Assembly (NCBI RefSeq): GCF_000967965.1
Contig: NZ_LACC01000027.1
Location: 1-64,000, forward strand
Direction of reading: 5' to 3'
Source of the DNA: Pseudomonas fluorescens
Lineage (GTDB): Bacteria; Pseudomonadota; Gammaproteobacteria; Pseudomonadales; Pseudomonadaceae
DNA: 64,000 nt
The notes below the pieces were generated by a model that saw nothing but the letters and a program-made list of their open reading frames with translations, was not told where the DNA came from and ran no database searches. Position 1 is the stretch's first letter. Each line of letters opens with the position of its first letter. Position numbers and translations under genes: made by a program. Below are positions 41,897-59,387 of the stretch, one piece after another.

Positions 41897-42135
41897 GTGG
41901 AAGGGCTCGTAGCGCTGCTCCAATTCGTTACGTCGGGTTGATCCTGATGATCTTGATGGTTGTATTGATAGTGGCGTTCGTACTGGAAAACCAAGAATTA
42001 GTTAGTGTGCAATTTCTAGGTTGGTTGATGCCTAAGCTTCCAGTGTCGCTGTATATGTTGCTGTCGTTGCTAATTGGTTTGGCGGTGGGACCGTTATTCA
42101 GTTGGTATGCTAGCCTTAGAAAAAGCCGAGGTTAG
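41893..42135 (+). CDS. lapA: LapA domain (DUF1049) inner-membrane protein
   Basis: An 80-residue protein with two hydrophobic segments (about 14-35 and 48-70) and the '[13 protein letters not shown]' LapA motif between them. In E. coli LapA/LapB influence LPS assembly and LpxC turnover, which fits a location between ihfB and the O-antigen genes. Start is a GTG overlapping the ihfB stop. This LapA is unrelated to the large adhesin of the same name. Confidence 0.8.
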
Positions 42136-42242
42136 AAGTCTATTCGCTTCAAGTTGAGATGAAAAAGGCTGTAGTATTTTAGTCGGTTCAAAAATTGGCG
42201 GGCTGTATTATTTCGTAGGTAAGACTTTTCTAATGTTTAAGG

Positions 42243-43325
42243 ATGTTGGTCGTCATGCTCCAGGTCTCGAACACCCCAATAAGCAGTGATGAGATAGATA
42301 TTCTTGTCTTGATCAAAGCGCTTTGGGTGCGGAAGTGGATAGTTGTCAGTGTAACCGTACTTGTGACTATTGTCTCGGCGGTATACGCCTTTGCAGCTGA
42401 GCCATTGTACGAGGCCAGAATATACGTATTGCCTCCTGCTCAAAGCAATATTGCAGATTTTAACTATGGTCGAACATTGAATTCCGACTTGCCACTCTTC
42501 TCTGTTAAAGATGTTTACGATGTATTCGTTCGTAATCTCTTTAGTGAATCCTTACGGCGATCTTTTTTCGAGGAGGTTTATCTGCCGTCATTGACTGAAA
42601 ATGCACGCCAGGGTTCGCGTGACCGTCTATATCAAAAATTCTCAAAGCAGTTGGTCATCTCTTCGGAGGGAAAGGAAAGCCCTGACCGTTATTCTGTTAC
42701 TGTGCAGAGCGGCAATCCTTCGGAAGCCGGTGAATGGGTGCGCACTTATGTAAAAAATGCCGGTGTTACAGCAAAAAGCGAATTGATCAAAAACGTGGTT
42801 AGAGAAGCTCAGGTTAGAGCGCGTAACTTGGAGCAACAGATTAATGGTCTCCGCGAAAGTACTCGGCGAGAGCGAGAGGATAAAATAAAGGTTCTAAGTG
42901 AGGCTTTGGTGATTGCCAGAGCCATTGGTTTGAACAAGCCGGTCATTATCAGTGGGAAAACTCCCGGGGAGTTATCTCTGGGTGTGGATAGTCAAGCTTT
43001 ATATATGCGTGGAAGTGATGCGCTCCAGGCCGAAATTGAAGGTTTGGAAAACCGTGAGTCTGACGATCCGTTCATTCAGAATCTGCGAGTTTTGCAAGTT
43101 AAGTACTCATTTCTTAAAAATTTGACCGTCGATTCCTCCGGTGTTTCGGTATATCGGCAGGACGGAGCGGTTGATGATCCTGATAGTCCGATCAAGCCGA
43201 ATAAATTATCAATTCTGATACAGGGGGCGTGCTTCGGGCTCTTCCTGGGGTTGGTTTTGGCGCTGTTCGGGTATGTCGCACCTTTGTTGCGCGCCAAAAT
43301 TCTGATTCCCTCCTCACATCCCTGA
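42243..43325 (+). CDS. wzz: O-antigen chain-length regulator (Wzz family)
   Basis: A 360-residue polysaccharide co-polymerase. N-terminal transmembrane helix near residues 33-50, a long periplasmic part with coiled-coil segments ('REAQVRARNLEQQINGLRES'), and a C-terminal helix (about 325-350) preceded by the Pro-containing 'PDSPIKPNK' motif. It sets the modal length of Wzy-made polymer. The first ATG abuts TAAGG; an in-frame ATG four codons on (42255) has better spacing. First gene of the O-antigen cluster. Confidence 0.88.
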   Translation: MLVVMLQVSNTPISSDEIDILVLIKALWVRKWIVVSVTVLVTIVSAVYAFAAEPLYEARIYVLPPAQSNIADFNYGRTLNSDLPLFSVKDVYDVFVRNLFSESLRRSFFEEVYLPSLTENARQGSRDRLYQKFSKQLVISSEGKESPDRYSVTVQSGNPSEAGEWVRTYVKNAGVTAKSELIKNVVREAQVRARNLEQQINGLRESTRREREDKIKVLSEALVIARAIGLNKPVIISGKTPGELSLGVDSQALYMRGSDALQAEIEGLENRESDDPFIQNLRVLQVKYSFLKNLTVDSSGVSVYRQDGAVDDPDSPIKPNKLSILIQGACFGLFLGLVLALFGYVAPLLRAKILIPSSHP

Positions 43326-43739
43326 GGTGGGTAAATTACCGTATTGGGTGCACGGGCGTCTGGGGCGTTCGTTTGGATGCTTGTGTAGCGTTCGGGAAGA
43401 TAGCGCTCGCCACGCTGAATAATCGGTTTCAGATGCGTGAAAATCCCTCCCTTTTTTGCTTGGTCGGAGGGGGGGCGGTGGATGATGCTAGTGGTGCGGC
43501 AAGCGTTCACGGTTCGATGGCTGTATCAAGCCATAAAGCGCATGCCGATACGTAGAAATGTGTCTACCTATCAAAATCTGGTAACGCTATTGTGTCATCT
43601 AGGAGATAATGGCGGGCGGGGCAAATAGAAGACTTTTGCCGGATGGCGGAAAAGTGTATACACTTTATAATTCTGTTAAAAGTTGTTGTGTTTGTTGTTG
43701 GTATATGGTAGGCGGGCTGGTTATGGTTGTTGGATAGGG
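43326..43739 (+). other. Unassigned gap between wzz and wzx
   Basis: About 414 bp without a recognisable gene. Short frames exist but show no family signature. It contains a G-rich/C-rich stretch (43444-43482), a perfect 16-bp palindrome at 43651-43666 and a TATAAT box. It may be remnant DNA left by past gene exchange at the locus plus an internal promoter. Confidence 0.5.
43651..43671 (+). promoter_or_regulatory. Palindromic operator-like site touching a -10 box
   Basis: 'aaagtgtatacacttt' at 43651-43666 is a perfect 16-bp inverted repeat. Its last base starts a perfect TATAAT (43666-43671), about 70 bp before the wzx start. No good -35 hexamer at 17 bp is visible, as expected for a regulated or activator-dependent promoter. 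The regulator is unknown. Confidence 0.5.
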
Positions 43740-45011
43740 ATGCGGAAAAGAATGATTAGGCCAATTATCAACATTGGTTGTCAGGCAGTTTTTAAACTAG
43801 TGTTCGCTGTCGCATCTCTGAAAGTAGTGGCGTTTTATGTTGGGCCGAGCGGTATGGCCGTAGTTGGGCAAATACAAGCCTTTCTTCAGATTTTAAGTGC
43901 TGGTGCATCCTCGGTAACAACTTCCGGTGTGGTGAAACTGATAGCTGAAGATAAATATCCAAAAGAGCGAATCCTGCAATCGTCATTGATGCTGCTACTG
44001 GCTTTTAGTTTTTCTTTTGTTTTGGTTTTGCTTTTTTCGAGCACCCTTATTTCCGATTTTTTCTTGCAGGGTGGGTGGGTGGAGGTGTTATTGCTTCTGC
44101 CTCTAGGTGCTTTTTTTATAGGTTTGAATAATTTATTTATTTCTTACTTTAATGGTGGTCAAAAGTACAGTGAGTATTTGTGGTATTCCGTCATAACGGC
44201 ATTTTTTACAGCTTTATTGACGTGTTCTTTTTCCATTATTTTTGGCAAGCCAGGAGCTGTTTATTCAATAGCACTGGCACCTGCTATTGCGGGTGTGTGT
44301 GTGTTGCTTCTGCCGGCGAGATTTCGACTTCCAAGACTGAGTCTGGTTAGACTGGATGTTGAAGTCATAAAGATATTGTTGTCTTACTCGCTTATGGCCT
44401 TGGGGTCGGTAATTATAGTCTACGGCGTGCAGATCGTCCTGCGAGACTATATATCTACTAATGGGTCAATGGCTGAGGCAGGCACGTGGTATGCAGTGAC
44501 CCGTCTATCCGATATATACATGGGTATATGCAGTGTCCTCTTTTCTACGTTGTTGTTACCTAAGTACAGTTCACAAGAAGGCAGGGCCTTGGCGAGTTTT
44601 GTATGTCGTATCGGGGTAATGGCACTCGGTTTCGTTGTTGTGATGGTGGTCTCGGTAAACGTATTGGCGAGCTTCGCTATTTGGTTAATTTATGGTGATG
44701 CTTTTGCGGCCGCCGCTGGGATCATGAAAGTTTATGTGATTGGCGATGCTCTCAAGTGTCTGAGCTGGGTGTTTCTTTATGTGATGATCGCTAAGCAGCA
44801 TGTTCGATTCTATCTCGTCTATGAAATGCTTAGTGCACTAATGTATCTCCTTTTCTGCATCTTGTGTTATCGGGTTTATGGCTTCAATAATATGGCTTAT
44901 GGGTATCCACTGCAGGGGGCTGTTTCTCTGACTATGGTGTTGATATGGTTTTTGGTGGTTCGATATAACTCAATGCCTTTAGAACAGAACAATAAGTATG
45001 ACGCAATATAA
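43740..45011 (+). CDS. wzx: O-antigen flippase (Wzx family)
   Basis: About 423 residues, twelve or so hydrophobic helices, MATE/polysaccharide-transporter type. 'VVAFYVGPSGMAVVGQIQAF' near the N-terminus is typical of the WzxE-like O-antigen translocases, which move undecaprenyl-PP-linked repeat units across the inner membrane. The start is uncertain: ATG at 43740 or 43752 (after GGAAAAG). Base composition is markedly AT-rich compared with flanking core genes. The 3' end overlaps wzy by 14 bp. Confidence 0.85.
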   Translation: MRKRMIRPIINIGCQAVFKLVFAVASLKVVAFYVGPSGMAVVGQIQAFLQILSAGASSVTTSGVVKLIAEDKYPKERILQSSLMLLLAFSFSFVLVLLFSSTLISDFFLQGGWVEVLLLLPLGAFFIGLNNLFISYFNGGQKYSEYLWYSVITAFFTALLTCSFSIIFGKPGAVYSIALAPAIAGVCVLLLPARFRLPRLSLVRLDVEVIKILLSYSLMALGSVIIVYGVQIVLRDYISTNGSMAEAGTWYAVTRLSDIYMGICSVLFSTLLLPKYSSQEGRALASFVCRIGVMALGFVVVMVVSVNVLASFAIWLIYGDAFAAAAGIMKVYVIGDALKCLSWVFLYVMIAKQHVRFYLVYEMLSALMYLLFCILCYRVYGFNNMAYGYPLQGAVSLTMVLIWFLVVRYNSMPLEQNNKYDAI

Positions 45012-46170
45012 TTTTGTATATGTTGTGGTTTGGTTGCTGGCCATTCTTTCATTGAAAAAAAATAATCACCCGTCGGCATGGTTGTTTTTTTTACAGGTGA
45101 CGTTGCTTGCCTTGTTCGTAGGTTTGAAGTTTCAAACCGGATATGATTGGCCAATCTATGAGGCGCATTACACAGCAGTACAAAACGGGGAAGACTTTTA
45201 TCTTGATTTTGAATTTGGGTATGAGTGGCTTGTCCAGCTTTCAGCAAGTATGGGGTTGGCGTTCGAGCAGTTTTCTGCGGTAATAAGTATATTGGAAATT
45301 GCTTTTATAGCTTTTGCAGTGAGACGCTTTTTTCCTAGGTATTGCCTGGTTGTCATGGCGATAATGTACTCGGTTCCAGATTTTTATTTGATACCTGCGT
45401 TTTCTCTGCTTAGGCAAGGCCTTGCAGTTAGTATATTTTTGATAGGTGTGTATAAGTTATTTTCAAATAAAAAAATCTCGGGCTTCGTCTTCTTTGCGAT
45501 GGCTTGCTCGTTGCACTATTCGGTAGTTGGCGGAGTTTTGCTGCTTGCATTGCTCTATATTTTTCCTTTAAGTCGAAGGACATTTTCATTGATTTTTGCT
45601 GCTTCGGTAGCGCTGTATGTATCTTCCTTTGATATCATTCGAGGTGTTGTTGAGGTTTTGATCGTTTACGTCAATCCAAAATACATGGTTTATTTGGATC
45701 GTGATGTTTTTAACGCAAGCTTTGCATATCGGGCTGCATTTGCAGTTGTTTCACTAGTGTTTTTCTTATGTATATACGGGGCTTGGGTAAGGCGTGAGTC
45801 TTCTAGTGTTGAGGTTCTTGGTGATAGGTGGGGGTTGCAAACCTATCGGTTGGCCTTGTTGGCGCTGCTCATTCCTTTGATTATATTTGGCTTCCCAACT
45901 CTATCTACCCGGTATCAGTTTTTTTTCGCCATTTTCCTTGTGGGGTGTACACTCGGTGCTTTACAGTATGTGACATACGCATGTCGTATTATTGTTGTCT
46001 TTGTGATTGCGATAATTGCATACTTGCCATTCTATAGATTTATATCAAGTCCGCTTTCTATTGTTTATATACCCTATCAAAGTCAGCTCTTTTATGATAA
46101 TAAAAATTCGACTGGGCAAGATCGAACTAATGATTTGCTCAACCAATTAGACGTGCTGTGGTCCAAATAA
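44998..46170 (+). CDS. wzy: EpsG family protein, probable O-antigen polymerase (Wzy)
   Basis: A 390-residue membrane protein with about ten to twelve helices and the EpsG-family region ('GLKFQTGYDWPIYEAHY', 'EFGYEWLVQL'). Members of this family serve as polymerases of repeat units in surface polysaccharide clusters. It is the only multi-span protein in the cluster besides Wzx and WbpL, so Wzy is the natural assignment. Very AT-rich. Starts inside wzx (14 bp overlap) and shares TAATG with the next gene. Confidence 0.8.
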   Translation: MTQYNFVYVVVWLLAILSLKKNNHPSAWLFFLQVTLLALFVGLKFQTGYDWPIYEAHYTAVQNGEDFYLDFEFGYEWLVQLSASMGLAFEQFSAVISILEIAFIAFAVRRFFPRYCLVVMAIMYSVPDFYLIPAFSLLRQGLAVSIFLIGVYKLFSNKKISGFVFFAMACSLHYSVVGGVLLLALLYIFPLSRRTFSLIFAASVALYVSSFDIIRGVVEVLIVYVNPKYMVYLDRDVFNASFAYRAAFAVVSLVFFLCIYGAWVRRESSSVEVLGDRWGLQTYRLALLALLIPLIIFGFPTLSTRYQFFFAIFLVGCTLGALQYVTYACRIIVVFVIAIIAYLPFYRFISSPLSIVYIPYQSQLFYDNKNSTGQDRTNDLLNQLDVLWSK

Positions 46171-47372
46171 TGAAATCAAGTAAAGATATCGTTCTGCTTA
46201 CTACCAAATATGCGGATGACAAAAAAGATGCTTGGTTGACTAATGAGTTGGCTTACTCATTGAATGAGGACGGGCATAATGTCTCTGTGGTTGTTTTCTC
46301 GTGGCTTAAGAATGAACCTGTGTCATTCACTAAGGTGATTGATGGTATTAAGGTTATCAGGGTCAAGCTTCCGGCTATATTTTATAACACAGGGGTCATC
46401 GGTACTTCCCTGAAGATATTCTTGTTTCCTTTCCTCGCTCGCCATGAAGTGCGAAAGCAAGTGAGTAAGTGCGACCTGTTAATTGCCAATACGCCTTGTG
46501 TGACCATTTTGGGGATGTCTCGCTATTTTAGAAAAAAATTTGACTCCCAGTCTTTTCTGGTGCTCTGGGATTTCTTTCCATATTATTTGAAAGACCTCGG
46601 TGCTATCAGAAATAAGCTGTTTTTTGGTTTTTTCCGTTATCTTGAAGAAATAATGTACAAAAGCTTTGATCGCATCGGATGTATGACTGACGGTAATGCC
46701 AGGTTCTTGTTTGATAATTTTCCGGCGGTGGATAAGCAGCGTGTGGAAATTTTACCTCTTTGGGCGAAGATCAAGCAGGTTGATCCGATAGACAAGTCTG
46801 AAATAAGGTTGAAGTACGATTTGCCATCTACAGGGTTTATTGCTGTTTATGGTGGCGCAATGTCTATTGTCCAGGAATTGGACAATATTCTCGATTTGGC
46901 TGAGCTTTACACTGGTGATGATGTGACCTTCCTTTTCATTGGTAAGGGGACTGAGAAGGAAAGGTTGGAGGAATCGGTATTTACTCGTGGTTTAAAGAAC
47001 GTAAAGTTTATCAACTACGTACCTCGTGATGAGTATCAGTATGTAGTTCAAGCCTGCGATGTGGGTCTGATTTCTCTGTCCGGGAAGTTAACTGTGCCGA
47101 GCTTTCCCTCTAAATCATTAGATTATTTTAAAGTTTCTCTTCCGGTGCTTGCATCTTTGGATTCAGTTACGGATTTTGGAGATATCCTTGAAAACAAAAT
47201 ATGTGCTGGTTTAGCCGTAGTGGCGGGGGATGTAACTAATCTAAAAAACAAATTGGATTTGTTGATTAAGGACGCTGAACTCTGTAAGGCCCTAGGGGCC
47301 AATGGTCGGCACTATTACGAAAAGTACTTGAGCGTCGAGAACGCAAGAAGTATTATCATGTCATCACTATAA
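46170..47372 (+). CDS. Glycosyltransferase family 4 protein
   Basis: A 400-residue GT-B fold glycosyltransferase. N-terminal acceptor domain up to about 190, C-terminal nucleotide-sugar domain with 'VYGGAMSIVQELDNILDLAE' and 'FIGKGTEKERLEE', and a late 'PSFPSKSLDYF' segment in place of the usual EGxP..E site (WcaI/WbuB-like). Donor unknown; by analogy with the P. aeruginosa O11 cluster it may add the third sugar of the unit. The ATG at 46170 overlaps the wzy stop by one base. Confidence 0.82.
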   Translation: MKSSKDIVLLTTKYADDKKDAWLTNELAYSLNEDGHNVSVVVFSWLKNEPVSFTKVIDGIKVIRVKLPAIFYNTGVIGTSLKIFLFPFLARHEVRKQVSKCDLLIANTPCVTILGMSRYFRKKFDSQSFLVLWDFFPYYLKDLGAIRNKLFFGFFRYLEEIMYKSFDRIGCMTDGNARFLFDNFPAVDKQRVEILPLWAKIKQVDPIDKSEIRLKYDLPSTGFIAVYGGAMSIVQELDNILDLAELYTGDDVTFLFIGKGTEKERLEESVFTRGLKNVKFINYVPRDEYQYVVQACDVGLISLSGKLTVPSFPSKSLDYFKVSLPVLASLDSVTDFGDILENKICAGLAVVAGDVTNLKNKLDLLIKDAELCKALGANGRHYYEKYLSVENARSIIMSSL

Positions 47373-47385
47373 GTGGGGTCTTCTC

Positions 47386-48423
47386 ATGGCTATTTCTTTC
47401 AGTAACTCAACGCTTTTGATCACCGGTGGCACCGGCTCGTTTGGTAATGCTGTGCTGAAACGGTTTCTCGATACTGATATCAAAGAAATTCGTGTGTTCA
47501 GCCGAGACGAGAAAAAACAAGATGACATGCGTAAAAAATACGCAAACACCAAGCTGAAGTTCTATATTGGCGACGTCAGAGATTTCCAGAGTGTACTCAA
47601 TGCTACTCGTGGAGTAGATTATATTTTTCACGCCGCTGCCTTGAAGCAGGTTCCTTCGTGTGAATTCCATCCAATGGAAGCTGTGAAAACAAACGTACTT
47701 GGTACTGATAACGTACTGGAAGCGGCGATACAAAATAACGTTAAGCGCGTAGTCTGCCTGAGTACTGATAAAGCTGTTTATCCAATCAATGCAATGGGTA
47801 TATCCAAAGCAATGATGGAAAAAGTAATGGTTGCCAAATCCCGTAACGATAACAATACGGTTATCTGCGGTACCCGTTACGGTAACGTGATGGCGTCCCG
47901 TGGTTCCGTTATTCCTTTGTTTGTTGATCAGATCCGTTCGGGCATACCGCTAAGCTTGACTGATCCAAACATGACGCGATTCATGATGACTTTGGCAGAT
48001 GCGGTCGATCTGGTTTTGTATGCTTTTGAGCATGGCACAAATGGTGACATGTTTGTCCAGAAGGCTCCCGCAGCGACTGTGGAAGTTTTGGCAAAAGCAT
48101 TGATCAATATGCTTAATGTGCCAGATCATCCCGTTCAGGTTATTGGTACCCGTCATGGTGAAAAGCTTTTTGAAGCGCTGCTTAGTCGTGAAGAAATGTC
48201 CTGCGCTGAAGATCGTGGTGACTACTTCCGCGTACCACCAGATCTGCGGGATCTGAATTACTCCAAGTTTGTGGAGCAGGGTGAGACCAAAATCTCTCGC
48301 ACTGAAGACTACAACTCGCATAATACCGAGCGCCTTGATGTAGAAGGTATGCAGAAACTGCTCCTCAAGTTGAACTTTATGCGCGCTATCCAGCGTGGTC
48401 AGCACGCTACACCTGAGGAATAA
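47386..48423 (+). CDS. wbjB: UDP-GlcNAc 4,6-dehydratase/5-epimerase (WbjB/FnlA/CapE)
   Basis: A 345-residue extended SDR that starts UDP-L-FucNAc synthesis by dehydrating and epimerising UDP-GlcNAc. Cofactor motif TGGTGSFG at about residues 13-20; the catalytic Met/Lys pair lies in 'DKAVYPINAMGISKAMMEK', where the usual SDR Tyr is Met, a hallmark of these dehydratases. Followed after 3 bp by wbjC. Composition is intermediate between host and the AT-rich genes upstream. Confidence 0.9.
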   Translation: MAISFSNSTLLITGGTGSFGNAVLKRFLDTDIKEIRVFSRDEKKQDDMRKKYANTKLKFYIGDVRDFQSVLNATRGVDYIFHAAALKQVPSCEFHPMEAVKTNVLGTDNVLEAAIQNNVKRVVCLSTDKAVYPINAMGISKAMMEKVMVAKSRNDNNTVICGTRYGNVMASRGSVIPLFVDQIRSGIPLSLTDPNMTRFMMTLADAVDLVLYAFEHGTNGDMFVQKAPAATVEVLAKALINMLNVPDHPVQVIGTRHGEKLFEALLSREEMSCAEDRGDYFRVPPDLRDLNYSKFVEQGETKISRTEDYNSHNTERLDVEGMQKLLLKLNFMRAIQRGQHATPEE

Positions 48424-48426
48424 GCA

Positions 48427-49545
48427 ATGAAGGTTCTGATTACAGGTGCCAATGGTTTTGTCGGCCAGAATCTTATTTCGCATCTGAGCGAGAAGTCCGA
48501 TATCGAAGTGGTGCGCTTTACCCGCGAGGATTCCCTGGACGTCTTGCCGAGTCTGGTTGCGCGGGTTGACTTTATTTTCCATCTGGCCGGTGTCAATCGT
48601 CCGTTGAATCCGCAGGAGTTTCATATCGGCAATACCGATTTGACTCGTGCACTCTGTGATGCTATCCGACTCAGTGGTCGGAAAGTTCCAGTGCTGTACA
48701 CGTCATCGAGTCAAGCGGAGTTGGATAACCCATACGGCAGCAGTAAACTCGGCGCCGAACAAGTATTACTTGATCTGAACTCGGAAAATGGTTCGGCAGT
48801 GCACTTGTTTCGTTTGCCTAACGTATTTGGTAAGTGGGCTCGTCCTAACTATAATTCAGCGGTTGCGACTTTTTGTAATAATATCGCTCGCGGTCTACCA
48901 ATCAATGTCAATGATCCGCATGCGCGAATTAATCTGGTTTATATAGATGACGTAGTTGCATGTTTCATTGCTGTAATGGAAGGGAAAAACTCAGGCTCGC
49001 CGTTTGTTAGTGTGGAGCCACAATACAATATTACGGTGGGTGAGCTTTCCGAGCAATTGGCGGCTTTCCGTGATAGTCGCAAGACGATGATTACCGAGTC
49101 GGTCGGAACGGGGCTTGTAAGGGCGCTTTATTCCACTTATTTGAGTTATCTGCCGCCTGAGCGTTTTACTTACGAAGTTCCCAAACACGGCGATCCGCGC
49201 GGGGTTTTTGTGGAAATGCTTAAAACCAAGGAGGCTGGGCAGTTTTCTTACTTTACTGCGCATCCAGGGATAACACGCGGCGGGCATTACCACCACTCAA
49301 AGACCGAAAAGTTCCTTGTCATCAAAGGCACGGCATGTTTCCGTTTCCGTCACATTGTTTCGGGTGAGTTTTACGAATTGTTCACTTCCGGAGAAAAGCC
49401 GGAAATTGTCGAAACAGTTCCGGGCTGGAGTCACGACATTACCAATACTGGCAGTGAAGAAATGATCGTTATGCTTTGGGCTAACGAGATTTTTGATCGT
49501 GAAGCACCTGATACGTTTACCTTTCCTGTTGGTACTGAAGCTTAA
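48427..49545 (+). CDS. wbjC: UDP-2-acetamido-2,6-dideoxy-hexulose reductase/epimerase (WbjC/FnlB/CapF)
   Basis: A 372-residue two-domain enzyme for the second step to UDP-L-FucNAc. The N-terminal SDR domain has TGANGFVG at residues 6-13 and YGSSK; the C-terminal cupin domain (about 250-370) has metal-type His in 'RGGHYHHSKTEKF' and performs C3 epimerisation. GAGGAA precedes the ATG. Downstream lies an unusual 414-bp gap before wbjD. Confidence 0.9.
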   Translation: MKVLITGANGFVGQNLISHLSEKSDIEVVRFTREDSLDVLPSLVARVDFIFHLAGVNRPLNPQEFHIGNTDLTRALCDAIRLSGRKVPVLYTSSSQAELDNPYGSSKLGAEQVLLDLNSENGSAVHLFRLPNVFGKWARPNYNSAVATFCNNIARGLPINVNDPHARINLVYIDDVVACFIAVMEGKNSGSPFVSVEPQYNITVGELSEQLAAFRDSRKTMITESVGTGLVRALYSTYLSYLPPERFTYEVPKHGDPRGVFVEMLKTKEAGQFSYFTAHPGITRGGHYHHSKTEKFLVIKGTACFRFRHIVSGEFYELFTSGEKPEIVETVPGWSHDITNTGSEEMIVMLWANEIFDREAPDTFTFPVGTEA

Positions 49546-49959
49546 TTATCGTGCGCGCCGCTTTATTCCTTAGATAAGGAGTGGGCGGCGCTGTGCTTTT
49601 GTGGGGCTTGCGATCCCTTGAAGTGGTAGTCTTGTAAATCCGATTTTTTGACAGTTTGTCACCCCCGTCACAGGCTCAAAAACAGACCGGAAAGTCTGTT
49701 GGTATTAGCTTTTTCGTTGGCGTTTTCTTCGAATTGGGCACCACGGAGTGACCGGATGTGGCCGCCGAGATCGAACGCGGTGGAGGTAAGGTGTGATCGG
49801 CGGCGGCCTTACCCGGGGTGTTGAGGCCAAGTGGCGCAGCGTCCACTCGTCCATTGATGGCCCTCATTGGGCTTCATGCATGCTAATGGATAGCTTTAGT
49901 GGCAGTTGAAGATTAGAATTGTTAATCGTTTTTATCACTTAAAAATGTGACGTTTAAAA
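49546..49959. other. Unassigned structured gap between wbjC and wbjD
   Basis: About 414 bp interrupting an otherwise contiguous operon. It holds a TTGACA with the short inverted repeat TGACA-gtt-TGTCA (49649-49661), a hairpin AACAGAC-cggaaa-GTCTGTT (49681-49700), and a long GC-rich hairpin with GGCCGCCG..GATC arms at 49761-49811. On the minus strand a 63-codon frame (49676-49867) is open, with Pseudomonas-like codons but no family I know. It looks like inserted or remnant DNA, more GC-rich than the genes around it. Confidence 0.5.
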
Positions 49960-51090
49960 ATGAAAAAATTGAAAATCGTTACCGTAGTGGGTACTCGCCC
50001 GGAAATCATTCGTCTGTCGCGCGTCATGGCCGCCCTGGACAGGGACTGTGACCATGTTTTAGTGCACACGGGGCAGAATTATGACTATGAACTGAACGAG
50101 ATTTTCTTTCAGGATCTCGGTATCCGTAAACCCGACCACTTTCTGAACGCTGCTGGCGCAACAGGCGCAGAGACCATCGGTAACGTCATTATTTCCGTTG
50201 ATCGTGTGCTGGCTGAGGTTCAGCCTGAGGCTCTTCTCGTCCTCGGCGACACGAATAGCTGCATGGCGGTCATTCCCGCCAAACGTCGTAAAATTCCGGC
50301 TTTCCATATGGAAGCTGGTAACCGTTGCTTCGACATGCGTGTGCCTGAAGAAATCAACCGACGTATTGTAGATCACACCGCTGATATCAATTTAACTTAC
50401 AGCACCATTGCGCGCGACTATCTGCTAAGTGAAGGCTTGCCACCGGACAGGGTTATCAAAACTGGTAGCCCGATGTTTGAGGTGCTTAATTATTATCGTG
50501 AAGGTATCGATTCTTCGGACGTGCTGGAGCGGCTTGGGCTTGAGCAGGGCAAATTTTTTGTAGTAAGCGCACACCGTGAAGAAAATATTGATTCTGATAC
50601 TAACTTCGGAAAGCTTGTTGAAGTACTCAACACAGTCGCAGCGCACTATGACTATCCGGTAATTGTCTCCACCCACCCGCGGACACAGAAGCGTGTCGAT
50701 GCCATGGGGGTGAAGTTTCACGAGAATGTTCGTCTGCTAAAACCGCTCGGTTTCAAGGACTACAACAAGCTGCAACTTGAGTCCAAAGCGGTACTTTCCG
50801 ATAGTGGTACGATCAATGAAGAGTCCTCTATTCTCAACTTCCCAGCGTTGAATATCCGTGAGGCGCACGAGCGTCCAGAGGGTATGGAAGAAGCCGCTGT
50901 GATGATGGTTGGCCTTGAGTCCGAGCGAGTGATGCAGGCCTTGCAGGTGCTGGACGGTCAAAGCCGAGGTGAGGTTCGCAGTCTGCGCCTGGTGGAAGAC
51001 TACAGCATGCCGAACGTTTCGGAAAAAGTGGTCAGGATCATTCACAGCTACCGCGACTATGTTATGCGTGTCGTTTGGAAAAAGTACTGA
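49960..51090 (+). CDS. wbjD: UDP-N-acetyl sugar 2-epimerase (WbjD/FnlC/CapG)
   Basis: A 376-residue non-hydrolysing UDP-GlcNAc 2-epimerase homologue that completes UDP-L-FucNAc synthesis. The GT-B-like fold starts 'VVGTRPEIIRLSRVMAAL'; 'HMEAGNRCFDMRVPEEINRR' and 'SDSGTINEESSILNFP' are the conserved substrate-site segments. It lacks an obvious strong ribosome-binding site, which is notable after the long gap. Confidence 0.9.
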   Translation: MKKLKIVTVVGTRPEIIRLSRVMAALDRDCDHVLVHTGQNYDYELNEIFFQDLGIRKPDHFLNAAGATGAETIGNVIISVDRVLAEVQPEALLVLGDTNSCMAVIPAKRRKIPAFHMEAGNRCFDMRVPEEINRRIVDHTADINLTYSTIARDYLLSEGLPPDRVIKTGSPMFEVLNYYREGIDSSDVLERLGLEQGKFFVVSAHREENIDSDTNFGKLVEVLNTVAAHYDYPVIVSTHPRTQKRVDAMGVKFHENVRLLKPLGFKDYNKLQLESKAVLSDSGTINEESSILNFPALNIREAHERPEGMEEAAVMMVGLESERVMQALQVLDGQSRGEVRSLRLVEDYSMPNVSEKVVRIIHSYRDYVMRVVWKKY

Positions 51091-51108
51091 TCAGGACGAA
51101 AAGTATTA

Positions 51109-52311
51109 ATGGCGAAGGTTTTTGTTGTTTCAGAGTATGTGGGTGCAGAACAAAATTCGACCGGTTTTTTTTGGTCGAAAATCGTTAGTAAGATTGGGGT
51201 AGAACTTGGGCGGGTAACAGTAATTTATCCAAGCGCAAGTAAGTCCTCATGCTTATTTGAGAGTCACGATGTTAAAGAAGTGGCATTCACAGCGCTGAAA
51301 TTTAACAAAAACAAGCTGATTTCCAGATTCTTCGGACAGTTTTATCAGGTGGCCGGATTCTGTTGGCATATTCTCCGGGATGTAAAAAAAAATGATGTTG
51401 TGCTGACTGGGACTAATCCGGCATTACTATTGATGGTTATTCCCCTCTTGAAGCTGATCAAACGTTTTAAGTGGGGGGTTCTGGTTCATGATGTATTTCC
51501 GGAGAACTTAGTTCCTGCCGGCATAATGAAGTCCACCAGTCGTGTCTATCCGATAATCAACCGTTTATTCTCCAGTATTTATAATTCTGCAGAGTTGCTG
51601 ATTGTTATCGGACGCGACATGCAGGAGTTAGTCAGCCTGAAGGTCACGAATACGGCTAAGGTCGTATTCGTGCCAAACTGGGCAGATGAGAAAGAGGTTT
51701 TTCCTTTACCTCGTCACACTGCGCCATTTTTAAATGAATTGGGGTGGCAGGAAAAAGTTGTATTCCAGTTTTTTGGCAATATTGGGCGTGTACAGGGAAT
51801 TGAGAATATTCTCGACGCTATTTCTCTTGTCGAAGATGATCGGGCTGCGTTCATATTTATTGGAGATGGCGCGCTCGTCGCCAAGGTCAAGGAGTTCGTA
51901 AAAAGTAACCCTACAAAAAATGTTGCCTATGCGGGCACTGTTCCATTGAGGGACAAAAATCAGGGGCTTGCTGCTTGTGATGTAGCGTTAATTACCTTGG
52001 AGAAAGGAATGCTTGGACTGGGAGTTCCCAGCAAAGCATATTTTTCTCTTGCTGCAGATAAACCTCTTTTAGCAGTAATGGATGACAATGCCGAGATATC
52101 GCGAGTTATTCGCGAAAAAGGAGTCGGATGGCAGTGCAAACCGTCTGATCCGCGTGCTTTGGCCGACGTAATAGCAACAATATGCAATTCTGATCTTGAA
52201 GCGCTAAACGGCTGCTCGCTCGCTGTTTTTCGCGAGAATTATGCTGAGCATCTCGCATTGGATAAGTTCTATGGACATGTTGCTAATCTCATTGGACCGA
52301 ACAAGGTATGA
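51109..52311 (+). CDS. wbjE: Glycosyltransferase family 4 (WbjE/WbuB, probable L-FucNAc transferase)
   Basis: A 400-residue GT-B glycosyltransferase of the WbuB type, found with the L-FucNAc synthesis genes in many O-antigen and capsule clusters and thought to transfer L-FucNAc. Features: 'LVHDVFPENLVPAG' in the N-terminal domain, 'FFGNIGRVQGIENILDAI' starting the donor domain, and 'GLGVPSKAYFSLAADKPLLA' near the end. ATGA overlap of 4 bp with the next gene. Confidence 0.87.
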   Translation: MAKVFVVSEYVGAEQNSTGFFWSKIVSKIGVELGRVTVIYPSASKSSCLFESHDVKEVAFTALKFNKNKLISRFFGQFYQVAGFCWHILRDVKKNDVVLTGTNPALLLMVIPLLKLIKRFKWGVLVHDVFPENLVPAGIMKSTSRVYPIINRLFSSIYNSAELLIVIGRDMQELVSLKVTNTAKVVFVPNWADEKEVFPLPRHTAPFLNELGWQEKVVFQFFGNIGRVQGIENILDAISLVEDDRAAFIFIGDGALVAKVKEFVKSNPTKNVAYAGTVPLRDKNQGLAACDVALITLEKGMLGLGVPSKAYFSLAADKPLLAVMDDNAEISRVIREKGVGWQCKPSDPRALADVIATICNSDLEALNGCSLAVFRENYAEHLALDKFYGHVANLIGPNKV

Positions 52312-53240
52312 AAGTTTTAATTACTGGCGCCAATGGGTTTGTCGGGCGAGGTTTGGTTAGCGTTCTTCAGTCTGAATGCCATCAACTCGTTTGTTGCTCG
52401 CGAGTCGCTGTGTCCGACCATGAATTTGTTATTTCCTCTCCCTTAAGCGCCGATGCAGATTGGAGCCAGCTCTTAACGGGGGTTGATGTCGTAGTCCACT
52501 TGGCTGGCAAGGCTCACAATCTAGGTGAGCCAAGAGAAGTAGCTTTGCAGGGGTTCAAACAGGCGAATGTCGATGGCACGGTTCGTCTCGCAGAGCAGGC
52601 AATTTCGTCTAATGTCAAAAGGTTCATTTTTATCAGTTCCATAGGTGTGAACGGATCGTCAACGGAAGGTGCGTTTGACGAATCTTCTCCGGCGGCACCT
52701 CACGCGGATTACGCTGAATCAAAATGGGCTGCTGAACGGAAACTCGAGGAGTTAAATCGGAGGTCTTCCATGGAACTGGTTATTATAAGACCTCCTTTGG
52801 TATATGCGGCGCAAGCCCCCGGCAACTTTAAACGATTGCTTAAAATAGTTTCATTAGGGCTCCCTTTACCTTTTGCAACTATCAATAACCGACGTAGCAT
52901 GATTGCGTTGGAAAACCTGGTTGACTTTATCCGTGTCTGTGTGACGCATCCAAAAGCTGCCAATAACTTGTTTCTTGTTTCTGATGGTGTGGATCTGTCC
53001 ACCGCTGAGATAGTCAGGTTTCTGGCCAGTGGTATGAATAGAAAAGCTCGGCTTATTGCAGTTCCCCGGTTTCTCTTGTTGGCTGGGAGTACGGTATTGA
53101 GACGGCGCGCTATTTATACACAGCTTTGTTGTTCTTTGGTAATTGACTCTTCGAAAGCACAATCAACTTTGGGTTGGGTCCCTGTCGTCTCTCCTCAGCA
53201 AGCGTTGACAGAGTCCGGTCGGGGTTTCAAAGCGCTCTAA
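52308..53240 (+). CDS. wbjF: NAD-dependent epimerase/reductase (WbjF/WbpV-like)
   Basis: A 310-residue extended SDR with TGANGFVG at residues 6-13 and YAESK as the catalytic motif. In Pseudomonas O-antigen loci this enzyme acts after WbpM on the UDP-4-keto-6-deoxy-HexNAc to give UDP-D-FucNAc or UDP-D-QuiNAc, the sugar that WbpL transfers first. Sequence alone does not decide between the two products. Starts inside wbjE and precedes wbpL. Confidence 0.82.
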   Translation: MKVLITGANGFVGRGLVSVLQSECHQLVCCSRVAVSDHEFVISSPLSADADWSQLLTGVDVVVHLAGKAHNLGEPREVALQGFKQANVDGTVRLAEQAISSNVKRFIFISSIGVNGSSTEGAFDESSPAAPHADYAESKWAAERKLEELNRRSSMELVIIRPPLVYAAQAPGNFKRLLKIVSLGLPLPFATINNRRSMIALENLVDFIRVCVTHPKAANNLFLVSDGVDLSTAEIVRFLASGMNRKARLIAVPRFLLLAGSTVLRRRAIYTQLCCSLVIDSSKAQSTLGWVPVVSPQQALTESGRGFKAL

Positions 53241-53267
53241 CATTTTTTTGTGTGTGGTGTTTCTATA

Positions 53268-54311
53268 ATGATAAATGCACATTTTTCAACCGAGTATTAT
53301 TGGCTCGCCTTTCCTGCGGTAATTCTTTTGTCGCTCGGTTTGACCGGGGCACTGCGTATTTACGCGTTGAAGAACAGTCTCATTGATGTGCCAAATGGCC
53401 GGAGTTCTCACTCGATCCCCACACCTCGCGGTGGAGGGGTTGCCATTGTCGTTTGTTTTCTGTTGGTCATGCCGTTACTCGCTACGACAGGACTTGTAAC
53501 CTGGTCAAATGCAATGGCATTGATTGGTGCTGGAGCCTGGGTTGCTGTGATTGGATTTCTTGACGATCACGGTCATATTGCGGCTCGCTGGCGTCTATTG
53601 GCTCATTTCGCTGGCGCGATCTGGGCATTGTTTTGGCTTGGTGGTCTGGCTCCGGTCGACGCTTTCGGCCTAACGATCGACCTCGGTTGGTTAGGTCATG
53701 TTGTTGCCGCTTTCTATCTGGTCTGGATGCTTAATCTTTACAACTTCATGGATGGAATTGATGGAATCGCCGGGGTTGAGGCCGTAACCGCGTGTATCGG
53801 TGCTTGTCTGATTTATTGGGTTACCGGTTTTGATGCTCTGGTTTGGGCACCTTTACTGCTCGCCGCTGCGGTACTGGGGTTTCTTTGCTGGAATTTTCCA
53901 CCTGCGCGAATTTTCATGGGTGATGCGGGTAGTGGGTTTCTGGGCATCATACTGGGCATTTTTTCCCTTCAGGCATCCTCTAGCGCACCACAACTATTGT
54001 GGGTCTGGTTGATTCTACTTGGCGTATTCATTGTCGATGCCACATTCACCTTGTTGCGGCGTTTAATGCGGGGCGATAAAGTTTATGAGGCGCATCGCAG
54101 TCATGCCTATCAGTTCGCCTCTAGAAGTGTCGGTCGTCATCTACCGGTAACGGTTGGTGTCTTGATGATCAACCTGTTTTGGCTGCTTCCGATAGCTCTG
54201 TGTGTTGGGGTAGGGACCTTAAATGGCCTTCTCGGCCTGCTGATAGCATACGTTCCCTTGGTTTTACTCGCCGTCAGGTACCATGCGGGCGAGCTGGAAC
54301 AAGTGAATTGA
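53268..54311 (+). CDS. wbpL: Polyprenyl-phosphate sugar-1-phosphate transferase WbpL
   Basis: A 347-residue MraY/WecA-family membrane transferase (about ten helices) that starts O-unit assembly by adding a HexNAc-1-P to undecaprenyl phosphate. Conserved catalytic segments: 'GRSSHSIPTPRGGGVAIV', 'FLDDHGHIAARWRLLAH', 'NLYNFMDGIDGIAG' and 'RIFMGDAGSGFLG'. The ATG at 53268 was chosen; a GTG at 53250 would add six residues. WbpL also primes the common D-rhamnose polymer in P. aeruginosa. Confidence 0.9.
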   Translation: MINAHFSTEYYWLAFPAVILLSLGLTGALRIYALKNSLIDVPNGRSSHSIPTPRGGGVAIVVCFLLVMPLLATTGLVTWSNAMALIGAGAWVAVIGFLDDHGHIAARWRLLAHFAGAIWALFWLGGLAPVDAFGLTIDLGWLGHVVAAFYLVWMLNLYNFMDGIDGIAGVEAVTACIGACLIYWVTGFDALVWAPLLLAAAVLGFLCWNFPPARIFMGDAGSGFLGIILGIFSLQASSSAPQLLWVWLILLGVFIVDATFTLLRRLMRGDKVYEAHRSHAYQFASRSVGRHLPVTVGVLMINLFWLLPIALCVGVGTLNGLLGLLIAYVPLVLLAVRYHAGELEQVN

Positions 54312-54422
54312 GGTGAATTTCGCCCGGTTGGTAAGGTTACAAAAAAGCTGTCATGTTAAATAATTGATCTCTGATTTTAAGTATCCAGCGCTTGAAGCTT
54401 TCAGGAGTGCGAAAGGGGTTTT

Positions 54423-56417
54423 ATGGATAATCTTCGGGCATATTTGTTAAGGCTTCCACGTAGTCGCAAACGTATCTTGCAAGTCATCACTGACTGCTCG
54501 CTCGTCTGGGTAGCGTTGTGGATGTCATTCATCGTTCGCTTGGGTATTGACGAGATGATCAATCCGTTTACCCAGCATTTTTGGTTGTTCCTGGCTGCCC
54601 CGGTCATCGCGATTCCTCTTTTCATCCGCTTCGGAATGTACCGGGCGGTGATGCGTTACTTCGGTAACGATGCCCTGATTGCGATTATCAAGGCTGTCAG
54701 CCTTTCTGCCCTGATTCTCGGGGTGGTGGTGTTCTGGTACAGCAATCATCAGAACGTTGTCCCGCGGTCAATTATTTTTAACTACTGGTGGCTTAGCCTG
54801 ATCATGGTGGGAGGGCTTCGTCTCGCTATGCGCCAGTATTTTCTGGGTGACTGGTTTGCAGCAGCACAACATGTGCCGTTTACCAATCGTGACGATGGGC
54901 TGCCACGCGTAGCTATTTATGGAGCCGGCGCGGCTGGGAACCAACTGGTTGCAGCACTTCGGATGGGGCGCGCGATGCGCCCGGTTGCATTCATTGATGA
55001 TGATAAAAGCATCGCTGATCGCGTGATCTCTGGCTTGCAGGTGTATAAGCCCAAGCATATTCAACGCATGATTGATGTTACCGGGGCGCAGGAAATTCTA
55101 CTTGCGGTTCCATCAGTGAATCGTGCTCGCCGCCGTGAGATTCTTGGCTTTCTGGAGCGATTCCCACTGCACGTACGAAGTATACCGGGGTTCATGGACC
55201 TCGCCAGCGGGCGAGTCAAGGTCGACGATATACAAGAGGTTGATATCGCGGACCTGCTCGGTCGGGATGCTGTGCCAGCACAGGGTGATTTACTGGAGCA
55301 TTGCATCAAGGATCGATCGGTTCTCGTCACGGGCGCCGGCGGCTCTATCGGCTCCGAGCTTTGTCGTCAGATCCTGGTCCTGCAACCGACGACGCTTTTG
55401 TTGTTCGAACACAGTGAGTTCAATCTTTACAGTATTCTCTCGGAGTTGGAGCAGCGTATATCGCGAGAGTCGCTGTCTGTACGTCTGTTACCAATACTTG
55501 GTTCGGTGCGTAATCAGGACAAACTTCTAGATGTAATGAAAACCTGGCATGTCGATACGGTGTATCACGCTGCCGCTTATAAACATGTCCCGATGGTTGA
55601 GCACAATATTGCCGAAGGGGTGTGGAACAATGTAGTTGGTACGTTGAATACCGCACAAGCCGCTCTTCAGGCCGGAGTTTCGAATTTCGTACTGATCTCT
55701 ACGGATAAGGCCGTGCGTCCTACGAACGTCATGGGCAGTACGAAGCGGTTGGCGGAGTTGACGCTGCAGGCATTGAGCCGCGAGGTGGCGCCGGTGATGT
55801 TTGGCGATAAGACCAATGTCTCTCGAGTCAATAAAACCAGGTTTACCATGGTGCGATTCGGCAACGTACTAGGGTCTTCCGGCTCGGTAATTCCGCTGTT
55901 TCACAAACAGATCATGTCCGGCGGTCCTTTAACGGTTACTCATCCGAAAATAACCCGTTACTTTATGACCATCCCGGAAGCGGCCCAGCTTGTGATTCAA
56001 GCTGGCTCGATGGGGCAGGGGGGGGATGTTTTTGTTCTGGATATGGGTGAACCGGTAAAAATTGTCGAGCTTGCGGAGAAAATGATTCATCTCTCCGGCT
56101 TGAGCGTACGTTCGGAAAAAAATCAACATGGCGATATCTCCATTCAGTTCACCGGTCTGAGACCTGGTGAGAAGCTTTATGAAGAATTGCTTATTGGGGA
56201 TAACGTTGCGGCTACGCCGCACCCGATGATCATGACAGCCAACGAAGACTATCTCAGTTGGGATGTCCTTAAAGTCAGGCTGAGTGAGTTACTGTCGGCT
56301 GTTGAGCGCGATGATTACACTCAAGTGCGTCAAATCTTACGTGAAACGGTGAGTGGCTATACCCCCGACGGGGAGATCGTCGACTGGATTTTCCAGCAGC
56401 GCCGCCTCGAACCCTGA
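54423..56417 (+). CDS. wbpM: UDP-GlcNAc 4,6-dehydratase WbpM, membrane-bound
   Basis: A 664-residue full-length WbpM/PglF-type enzyme: four N-terminal transmembrane helices (up to about 140), a CoA-binding-like Rossmann domain ('AIYGAGAAGNQLVAALRMG'), and the catalytic SDR domain starting 'VLVTGAGGSIGSELC' near residue 300. The catalytic Met-Lys pair is in 'DKAVRPTNVMGSTKRLAE'. It forms UDP-2-acetamido-2,6-dideoxy-D-xylo-4-hexulose from UDP-GlcNAc, the precursor for the WbjF-type enzyme. AGGAG/AAAGGGG precede the ATG. It is the standard right border of the Pseudomonas O-antigen locus. Confidence 0.94.
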   Translation: MDNLRAYLLRLPRSRKRILQVITDCSLVWVALWMSFIVRLGIDEMINPFTQHFWLFLAAPVIAIPLFIRFGMYRAVMRYFGNDALIAIIKAVSLSALILGVVVFWYSNHQNVVPRSIIFNYWWLSLIMVGGLRLAMRQYFLGDWFAAAQHVPFTNRDDGLPRVAIYGAGAAGNQLVAALRMGRAMRPVAFIDDDKSIADRVISGLQVYKPKHIQRMIDVTGAQEILLAVPSVNRARRREILGFLERFPLHVRSIPGFMDLASGRVKVDDIQEVDIADLLGRDAVPAQGDLLEHCIKDRSVLVTGAGGSIGSELCRQILVLQPTTLLLFEHSEFNLYSILSELEQRISRESLSVRLLPILGSVRNQDKLLDVMKTWHVDTVYHAAAYKHVPMVEHNIAEGVWNNVVGTLNTAQAALQAGVSNFVLISTDKAVRPTNVMGSTKRLAELTLQALSREVAPVMFGDKTNVSRVNKTRFTMVRFGNVLGSSGSVIPLFHKQIMSGGPLTVTHPKITRYFMTIPEAAQLVIQAGSMGQGGDVFVLDMGEPVKIVELAEKMIHLSGLSVRSEKNQHGDISIQFTGLRPGEKLYEELLIGDNVAATPHPMIMTANEDYLSWDVLKVRLSELLSAVERDDYTQVRQILRETVSGYTPDGEIVDWIFQQRRLEP

Positions 56418-56956: not shown

Positions 56957-58231
56957 TTAATCGGGCTTTTTCGGTAGCAAGGTTGCCCGAGCGAAAGCAA
57001 GCAGGGTGCCGAGCAGTAATCCGAATATCAGCCCTGCGCCGACGATCAATGCTTTTTTCGGTTTGATAGGAAATGGTGGAGGCGAAGCAGTTCTGTCGAT
57101 ATTAACCAAGTTGAACTGGTCAGACTCGATATGTATGTTTTTCAAGTGCGCCAATTCTTCGCGGATTTTACTCAAGCCGTTCAAGAAAAGCTCTTCGTTA
57201 TTGCGTTGCCGCAGCAAAGCGACCTCGCGGTTGTTGGCAAGGAGGGTGAGTTCTTTTTGAATCTCATCAATACGAGGCTCGGTAAAATCATCAGAGTTTC
57301 GCGAGACCAATGTCGCACGCTCTGCTTCTAGCGCCGACTGACCCATAAAATATAGAGGGATTTGTTGGTTGCTTACTTCTGTTCGAATCATGTTGCCCTG
57401 CCGTGTTTGCCCGGAGTCTCCAAGGGCAGATGGCGTAGTAGGGGCAACAATACCCAGCTTCTTGGCAATTGTTATTGCCTCATCCAGTTGTTTGATGCGA
57501 TTTTGTCGGCGAGTTTGAAGCTGCTGACGCAAAGCCTTGAGTTCGTCTTGAAGCATCTCTTTTCTTAGCTGATCCTTTTCAAGGAGCTCGGCAATCTTTG
57601 AGTCCTTATCGGCTTCGTATGCTGCTTTCCTCGAGAGCAACTTTCTTTCGGTTTGTGCAATTCGGTTGTCAATAAGAGTTTTCAAGTCCGATTCGACTTT
57701 CTCTTTTTCACGTTTGACGACGAAGTCGGTAAAGTTGTTAACAATAGCGACACCATCCATTCCCAATGGGTACTCAACACCAAACTGAATGGCTTCCGAA
57801 AGATTGGCGGTTTTTTTAGGGTCGATTTGATCGACTGTAAAGCCATTGGTGTTGAAACGCTCAAGCGTTTCTTCGAGTGATTTACCATTTACTTGAATTG
57901 GCGCGAGCAATTCCGGGTTGGCCTGAAAAAATTTCAAGCGTACGGAATACGACTCCATGGAAGAACCGATACGTCTTAATGACTCTGCTGGATTGATTGT
58001 GTAAAGACCGGTTCCATTTAACATATCCAGGTCAGTTGAGGCGACCGGCCTGATATAGTTTTGTACTTTATATTGGGGTTGTGCCGTTAATGCATAAGTA
58101 ATTGCGAGCGCCGTGGAAAGACCGGTAAAGAGTAGAATTATCCCTCTTTGTTTCCATAGGTTGCGTATAAATTCTGCAACATCAATTTCATGATGCTCAA
58201 TGTCGGGGCTTATTTTTTCAGGGAAGTTCAT
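56957..58231 (-). CDS. Second chain-length regulator (Wzz family), inverted
   Basis: A 424-residue Wzz-type co-polymerase. N-terminal helix near 33-52, long periplasmic region with a pronounced heptad-rich coiled coil (about 180-260, Lys/Glu/Arg/Leu-rich), and a C-terminal helix (about 393-415) preceded by 'PPPFPIKPKKA'. It is larger than the 360-residue Wzz at 42243 and shares little beyond the fold, so it may specify a very long chain modality like Wzz2/Fep proteins. Transcribed towards comEA from a promoter in 58232-58446. Confidence 0.87.
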   Translation of the reverse strand: MNFPEKISPDIEHHEIDVAEFIRNLWKQRGIILLFTGLSTALAITYALTAQPQYKVQNYIRPVASTDLDMLNGTGLYTINPAESLRRIGSSMESYSVRLKFFQANPELLAPIQVNGKSLEETLERFNTNGFTVDQIDPKKTANLSEAIQFGVEYPLGMDGVAIVNNFTDFVVKREKEKVESDLKTLIDNRIAQTERKLLSRKAAYEADKDSKIAELLEKDQLRKEMLQDELKALRQQLQTRRQNRIKQLDEAITIAKKLGIVAPTTPSALGDSGQTRQGNMIRTEVSNQQIPLYFMGQSALEAERATLVSRNSDDFTEPRIDEIQKELTLLANNREVALLRQRNNEELFLNGLSKIREELAHLKNIHIESDQFNLVNIDRTASPPPFPIKPKKALIVGAGLIFGLLLGTLLAFARATLLPKKPD

Positions 58232-58446: not shown

Positions 58447-59387
58447 GGTTCTGTACGAAATCAGTCGAAACCAATTTGAATTCCACAGGCGTCGAAATTC
58501 AGTAAAGTCCGCGTCCATCAAAGGCAGGAGCCCATGATGGCCAAACGGTATGAACTCCCCGACGCAGCCTGGGATTTGGTTGCGGATGTATTCGATGAAC
58601 CTCGTCGTAGCGGGCGCCCACGAACAGATGACCGTTTAATGCTTAACGGCGTCCTTTGGGTGCTCTGTTCTGGTGCTGCTTGGCGTGACATGCCTGAGCG
58701 TTTCGGCCCTTGGTCAACGGTTTATCAACGTTTTCGTGACTGGCGCAATCGCGGAACGTTTGACCAGATGCTAAAGAGGCTTCACATCAATCTGAACGAG
58801 CAAGGGTTCATTGATCTGGAAACTTGGATGATTGACTCCACGGCAGTACGCGCAACCCGGGCCTCTTCTGGTGCTGGGAAAAAAGGGGGCCTGAAGAACC
58901 GCAAGATCATGCGCTCGGCCGCAGCCGGGGCGGCCTGACCACCAAGATTAACATGCTGTGCGATGCCAACGGTTTACCCCTGACATTTCTATTGTCGGGC
59001 GGACAAGCCAGTGACATCGCTTATGCCCAACCGTTGCTGGATGAGGCGTACATACCAAGCTTGCGCGGCGGCCCTCGCAAACGCTGCCGATGGCTGTTGG
59101 CTGATAAAGGCTATGACGCCGAAGCTTTGCGTCGTTACTGCGACCGCTATCGGATGCAGCCGGTGATTCCTCTGCGCAGCATGAAGCGCAAACCCAAGCC
59201 GGGTTTGCCGAGACTGTTTGATCGTCCCAAGTACCGGCAGCGCAACATCATCGAGCGTATGTTCGGATGGCTGAAAGAAAACCGCCGCATCCTTACGCGC
59301 TTCGACAAACTCGCGAAAAGTTATGCGGCGATGGTCTCGCTGGCCTGCGCCATGCGGTATTTACGACATTACTTTTCGTACAGAGCC
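58447..59387 (+). mobile_element. IS5-family insertion sequence (IS427-like), about 941 bp
   Basis: Imperfect terminal inverted repeats: 'ggttctgtacgaaa' at the left (58447-58460) and, read inwards from the right end, 'ggctctgtacgaaaa' (ends 59387). The flanks show CTAG on both sides (58444-58447 and 59387-59390), so the target duplication is TA or CTAG depending on where the palindromic site is divided. One frameshifted transposase fills the element. The inverted repeats differ by one base in the first 14. Confidence 0.88.

Follow-up and report, generated by a model that had tools for sequence, protein, structure and literature searches.

A palindrome abutting a TATAAT box upstream of wzx in a Pseudomonas fluorescens O-antigen cluster, a candidate NicR-type operator-promoter

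A perfect 16-bp palindrome, AAAGTGTATACACTTT, which runs directly into a TATAAT box upstream of the flippase gene wzx in an O-antigen cluster of Pseudomonas fluorescens, matches the operators found between the nicotinate-degradation genes nicC and nicX, in both sequence and layout. The site is interpreted here as a putative operator-promoter of the NicR type for wzx and the genes that follow it, a reading based on sequence comparison to which a probability of about one half is assigned.

The analysis covers a window of 64,000 nucleotides (the whole stretch of DNA under study, contig NZ_LACC01000027.1) together with genomes of the genus, which are labelled by G numbers, the genome from which the window comes being G000; loci fetched for closer comparison are labelled by L numbers. 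The gene names given for L105, L111, L122, L070 and ihfB were read from translations rather than obtained by family search, unless stated.

Results

The O-antigen cluster and the gap upstream of wzx

The upstream neighbour of the site is wzz, the gene of the chain-length regulator (42243-43325, + strand; Pfam Wzz), and it is followed by the wzx-like gene (43752-45011, + strand; Pfam Polysacc_synt_3), whose orthologues in G074 and G205 are 72% and 67% identical. The downstream genes that the candidate promoter could serve (44998-56417, + strand, identified by Pfam families) comprise an EpsG-type (wzy-like) gene, glycosyltransferases, three sugar-nucleotide enzymes (Polysacc_synt_2, Polysacc_synt_C and Epimerase_2), an epimerase, a wbpL-like gene, and the wbpM-like gene at 54423-56417 with which the cluster ends; the names that go beyond the Pfam families are presumptive. 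The cluster is preceded by Pfam matches fitting gyrA, serC, pheA, tyrA-aroA and rpsA, and by an ihfB-like ORF read from its translation, an arrangement typical of Pseudomonas OSA clusters. None of the ten proteins encoded from wzz up to and including the wbpL-like gene could be recognised as a regulator, nor was one recognised at wbpM. In the portion of PMC6804347 consulted, wzz and wbpM are named as the border genes of the Pseudomonas OSA cluster, as they are here, but that portion describes no operator upstream of wzx.

Three further features of the region may be recorded. A second 414-bp gap within the cluster (49546-49959), between the Polysacc_synt_C and Epimerase_2 genes, has no ORF of at least 100 amino acids and is possibly the relic of a lost gene. 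A second wzz-like gene lies after wbpM on the opposite strand (56957-58231, - strand), and is followed, at 58534-59390 on the + strand, by an IS4/5-family transposase gene (DUF4096) and a further 145-amino acid ORF.

The palindrome occupies 43651-43666, with its core AGTGTATACACT at 43653-43664, and the TATAAT box, a candidate -10 element on the + strand directly behind the putative operator, occupies 43666-43671, the last T of AAAGTGTATACACTTT being the first T of TATAAT (43666). This arrangement upstream of wzx, to which a preliminary description of the DNA had drawn attention, is confirmed in the sequence. The same description placed it in a 414-bp gap after wzz, which is correct (43326-43739) if wzx begins at the ATG at 43740; that start is possible, but the ATG at 43752 is probably the true one, as the earlier of the two ATGs is missing from the orthologue in G205.

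The window holds no second perfect palindrome as long as this one (16 bp) or longer. Dinucleotide-shuffled versions of the window contain a mean of 1.31 such palindromes, and at least one occurs in 72% of 200 shuffles, so that a perfect 16-bp palindrome taken alone is ordinary. When the gap alone is shuffled, a perfect palindrome that long appears in 93 of 20,000 shuffles, and one that overlaps or abuts a TATAAT in 5 of 20,000, but both figures overstate the case because the gap was picked after the fact. The TATAAT word is concentrated locally, with 10 of its 11 occurrences on the two strands of the window falling within 43.6-59.6 kb, the part that carries the O-antigen genes.

As a sigma-70 promoter the site combines a perfect -10 with a poor -35, ATGGCG (43643-43648, + strand), which has 3 of 6 consensus positions and stands at a spacing of 17 bp from TATAAT. 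A strict promoter scan of 42100-43900 gave no sites at threshold, while a weighted sigma-70-like scan placed the TATAAT site fifth in the window, counting both strands. A possible alternative promoter, TTGCCG-N17-TACACT (43636-43664, + strand), whose -10 lies inside the palindrome, comes 17th in the same scan. On the + strand, a search for terminator-like sites gave nothing between wzz and wzx. A 42-codon upstream ORF (43609-43737, + strand) overlaps the palindrome; its version in G074 has 8 codons, and it is not conserved. A role for the palindrome itself as a terminator or RNA hairpin was rejected, given that it has no T run and that its fold is weak.

The preliminary description suggested that other copies of the palindrome in the genome might reveal a regulon. 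Only one site, the present one, exists in the 6.29-Mb genome at up to 2 mismatches, and a regulon built from near-identical copies of the full palindrome was accordingly rejected. The 21-mer consisting of the palindrome and TATAAT has a single match in genome_contigs (84,980 species; the search may leave out records of, or near, the genome itself), in a Sphingobacteriaceae record, and this match is taken as chance. The pattern AATCTGGTAACGCTATTGT, which at 3 mismatches matches in 170 of 398 genomes, was set aside as noise, and no plasmid matches of the wzz-wzx gap were found.

The match to the nic operators

The counterparts of nicC and nicX in P. putida are repressed by NicR, a protein of the MarR family. 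In the present genome the 12-bp core AGYGTATACRCT occurs exactly at three sites: one before wzx, and two, as inverted copies, between the nicC-like and nicX-like genes. The 12-mer search alone is not significant (4 forward matches against 3 in the control); the argument depends on the identity of two of the exact sites, the nicC-nicX operators. When one mismatch is allowed, the forward pattern has 9 matches and its reversed control 8, so that evidential value is confined to the three exact sites; the six one-mismatch sites elsewhere, which lie on contigs C12, C13, C32 and C77 and in four cases fall within an ORF of more than 120 amino acids, were rejected.

The nic operators can be compared across the genus. 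A nicX match at 1e-100 served as the sign that nic genes are present, in a set of 199 genomes, and the nicX and motif searches are taken as covering the same 199; 43 of these have nicX, and 30 loci with nicX were fetched, including the genome's own. Read towards nicC, the operator is AG[C/T]GTATACACT in all 30 loci, with C in 29 and T in L090, whose nicC operator is identical to the core of the wzx site at 12 of 12 positions. An operator pair lies between nicC and nicX in 29 of the 30 loci, with a single site in L098. The layout is also shared. TTA[A/T]AA follows the nicC operator directly in 23 of 30 loci, as it does before wzx (compare AGCGTATACACTTTATAAAAC at the nicC promoter of L086 with AGTGTATACACTTTATAATTC at wzx), and the TATAAT box is placed as is the AT-rich run behind the nicC and nicX operators, the operator thus standing directly before a -10-like sequence. 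TTGAAA is found at the -35 place in only 12 of 30 nicC promoters, so that the weak -35 of the wzx site, which has ATGGCG there instead, is not unusual for the nicC layout and TTGAAA does not define the operator. The suggestion in the preliminary description of a dedicated promoter under a dimeric DNA-binding protein accordingly acquires a candidate protein, NicR, and an operator/-10 layout like that of nicC promoters across the genus, but it still lacks a good -35.

A matrix built from 57 sites in 29 other genomes, when applied to the 20-bp stretch at 43649-43668, gives the wzx site 23.3 bits, within the range of 20.7-31.6 bits of the nic sites, although this range is somewhat generous since the training sites were picked by a pattern that contains the core. 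The next best position in the window reaches 5.3 bits, the score of the match at 42133, upstream of wzz, which is within chance, and none of 3 million random positions reaches 23.3 bits. The flanked motif WNWAGYGTATACRCTNWW is present in 36 of 43 nicX-positive genomes and in 2 of 156 nicX-negative genomes, compared with 1 of 199 for the reversed control. In the nicX-positive genomes its matches adjoin nicX with two exceptions, one in G023 (L144:6114, before the MFS gene of the cluster) and the other the wzx site. Sites outside the nic context are thus found in 1 of 43 nicX-positive and 2 of 156 nicX-negative genomes, and this comparison shows no clear enrichment of such sites where NicR exists.

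The two sites in nicX-negative genomes have the form AAGTGTATACACTT. One, in G007 (L111:1503), is upstream of what looks from its translation like a glutamate dehydrogenase gene, and the other, in G025 (L122:1503), is upstream of what looks likewise like a chemotaxis receptor gene. Both genomes have neither nicX nor a close NicR, only distant MarR proteins, and their sites, symmetric like the wzx site, could be due to chance or to another regulator.

The likelihood that an unrelated palindrome resembles the nic operators this closely can be estimated. Among 400,000 random perfect 16-bp palindromes, 18 (at 49% GC) or 60 (at 25% GC) score at least as high as the wzx site on a matrix of 34 sites. 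A genome encodes a few hundred regulators, and over that number of possible matches these frequencies amount to a coincidence of a few percent, which is small yet should not be neglected; the nic match was found after the fact.

The NicR protein and operators of plasmid-borne nic loci

The gene encoding NicR stands beside nicX in the same genome (contig C39; L105:8494-8973), and the nic locus (L105:5857-8973) carries the operators AGYGTATACRCT between nicC and nicX. The ORFs of the presumptive nic cluster read as genes for an MFS transporter, isomerase-like and hydrolase-like enzymes, NicC, NicX, the MarR protein, NicAB-like proteins and a TetR protein, and plasmid records that share this gene order carry matching annotations. 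For the nic proteins that were scanned against NCBIfam, no listed match exceeded the curated cut-off. The best PDB match of the genome's NicR is 6pco/6pcp, with an E value of 1e-55, the next entry being at 3e-19. These entries are presumed to be the Bordetella BpsR structures of PMC6837509. In the comparison of the genome's NicR with BpsR, the Tyr, His and Arg residues are kept, and a second His is aligned with Asn. Elsewhere in the genome (C56:10094-12341) there is a second nicX-like gene, 55% identical, with a distant MarR gene close by, which suggests a further degradation cluster of the pyridine type.

A NicR homologue is present in 106 plasmid records, from which 10 loci were fetched, spanning Alpha-, Beta- and Gammaproteobacteria and including one from Pseudomonas. 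Sites that score 12 bits or higher occur in 9 of these 10 plasmid-borne loci, where 0.008 would be expected per locus; the Rhizobium tropici locus (L151) has no site at that threshold. In the six loci with both flanking genes annotated, two sites lie in the divergent gap. These results support, by comparison, the assignment of the motif as the predicted operator of the NicR/BpsR group of MarR proteins. Whatever the role of the wzx site, the comparison thereby defines a NicR/BpsR-family operator, found in 30 of 30 loci of the genus and in 9 of 10 plasmid-borne loci.

The gap in related genomes

Close orthologues of wzx exist in only two of the other 397 genus genomes, G074 and G205, the remaining matches being at most 28% identical. 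The conservation in related strains that the preliminary description called for is not seen, since the palindrome is absent from the wzz-wzx gaps of both. NicR was sought in G000, G198, G074, G205, G277, G007 and G025, and at 1e-10 no match was found in G074, G205 or G277, while the controls, G000 and G198, were positive. The absence of the site in G074 and G205 consequently says little about a NicR site, because neither genome has a NicR match. Among the genomes searched, no other strain was found with both the O-antigen locus and NicR.

The element of the gap that does recur is a 46-bp block (43573-43618, + strand), which is 89% identical in the G074 gap, contains an 8-pair hairpin stem that is identical in both sequences, and includes the start-like sequence AGGAG-ATA-ATG. 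A 36-bp pattern derived from it, with 3 mismatches allowed, matches only G000 and G074 among 398 genomes, with 0 mismatches in each. The rest of the G074 gap aligns mostly poorly, and the block is absent from the G205 gap.

In G277 (L070), a genome of the same species, the interval from an rpsA-like gene to wzx holds another O-antigen cluster, whose ORFs resemble rmlB, wzz and rmlA in translation, and the identity of its wzx is about 25%. This difference suggests that serotypes have been exchanged. An ORF of that cluster, reading as a glycosyltransferase, contains a palindrome, AAATCGTATACGATTT, of the same length and centre, which scores 16.0; its position inside an ORF indicates that O-antigen clusters do produce chance palindromes of this kind.

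Discussion

The sequence of the site, its match to the nic operators, its layout and the presence of NicR in the genome are computed observations, and several explanations of them must be weighed against one another. The chief alternative, less likely than not, is that the palindrome and TATAAT came together by chance in an AT-rich, fast-evolving gap, that the likeness to nic is meaningless, and that transcription of wzx starts at some other promoter or continues into it from wzz. Such a coincidence is made easier by the 1.3 perfect palindromes expected per window and by the abundance of TATAAT in this part of it, and is also favoured by the absence of the palindrome from the two orthologous gaps, by the score of 16.0 attained by the palindrome within the G277 ORF, by sites of the same grade in 2 of 156 nicX-negative genomes, and by the lack of a terminator-like site on the + strand that would separate wzx from wzz. 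It accounts poorly, however, for the contact between palindrome and TATAAT, reproduced in 5 of 20,000 shuffled gaps, and for a core that agrees at 12 of 12 positions with the L090 nicC operator in a context that repeats the nicC layout.

Symmetry bears on a different explanation, in which the site serves as operator for a different protein that binds the consensus AAGTGTATACACTT as a dimer, such as a further member of the MarR family or one of GntR type, unrelated to nicotinate. All three non-nic sites in the 199 genomes (wzx in G000, and those in G007 and G025) are fully symmetric and appear upstream of genes, whereas 29 of 30 loci have an asymmetric nic operator in the nicC orientation; a close NicR is lacking in both G007 and G025. 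This explanation is nevertheless judged improbable, given that the genome itself has one site at up to 2 mismatches, that the three downstream genes have no evident common function, and that no regulator gene was recognised from wzz to the wbpL-like gene or at wbpM. The palindrome might also be irrelevant if the working element of the gap were the 46-bp block, as a leader or promoter element common to G074. The block's identity amid otherwise poorly aligned sequence, the restriction of its pattern to two genomes of 398, and the stem retained by the fold in both would fit that role, which is very improbable all the same, the block being absent from G205 and the comparison resting on two sequences. 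JUMPstart/ops is an element upstream of polysaccharide genes that acts on elongation rather than as a dimer operator, the E. coli-type ops word being GGCGGTAGCGTG-like. The present site resembles it in lying upstream of polysaccharide genes, but the gap contains no ops-like word: at up to 2 mismatches the GGCGGTAGCGTG-like word has 5 matches in the window and 0 in the gap, which also counts against such a role for the 46-bp block.

For the NicR-type operator-promoter, the closest known parallel is provided by the NicR-repressed promoters of nicC and nicX, which share with the wzx site the 12-bp core with AT flanks, the -10-like sequence behind the operator and a regulator encoded in the genome. 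The wzx site differs from them in that it stands before a flippase gene, is a single copy, is fully symmetric and has a poor -35. At the level of the regulator the parallel is BpsR of Bordetella, the closest solved homologue of the genome's NicR. BpsR, of the MarR family, is reported to repress nicC, nicE and the polysaccharide locus bpsA-D, and to release DNA with 6-hydroxynicotinate (PMC6837509); the Bps polysaccharide is not an O-antigen, and the likeness concerns the regulator. In Burkholderia gladioli, a nicR deletion is reported to lead to excess biofilm (PMC10269826). By analogy, since BpsR represses bpsA-D and the B. gladioli deletion mutant overproduces biofilm, a NicR-type switch before surface-polysaccharide genes would have a precedent of kind, though not one with an O-antigen target. 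No literature linking NicR and O-antigen was found, most subscription journals being outside the coverage, and the impression of the preliminary description that no such site is known for O-antigen clusters agrees with the titles and abstract beginnings searched.

If the site is such an operator, its mode of action can be outlined, in which the binding of NicR and the repression it exerts, as well as the identity of the inducer and any change in O-antigen, are what we infer from the parallels above. NicR would bind AAAGTGTATACACTTT as a dimer, covering the spacer and the TATAAT box, and in doing so would keep RNA polymerase from starting at about 43678. During nicotinate degradation an intermediate of the pathway, which for the Bordetella homologue BpsR is 6-hydroxynicotinate, would free NicR from the operator, and its release would raise transcription of wzx and of the O-antigen genes behind it, in addition to any read-through from wzz. 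The full reading, in which NicR represses wzx-wbpM through a nicC-type operator-promoter and nicotinate catabolism is thereby wired to O-antigen synthesis, is advanced tentatively, its chances being put somewhat short of even; as part of it, the operator would be a recent acquisition at a boundary of serotype exchange.

Should this reading be true, the O-antigen cluster would gain a named transcriptional switch together with a chemical inducer, and the association of BpsR in Bordetella and NicR in Burkholderia gladioli with polysaccharide or biofilm would be extended to the O-antigen of Pseudomonas. Nicotinate derived from plants or fungi would then alter the O-antigen, and hence the interactions of the bacterium with phages, tailocins and hosts.
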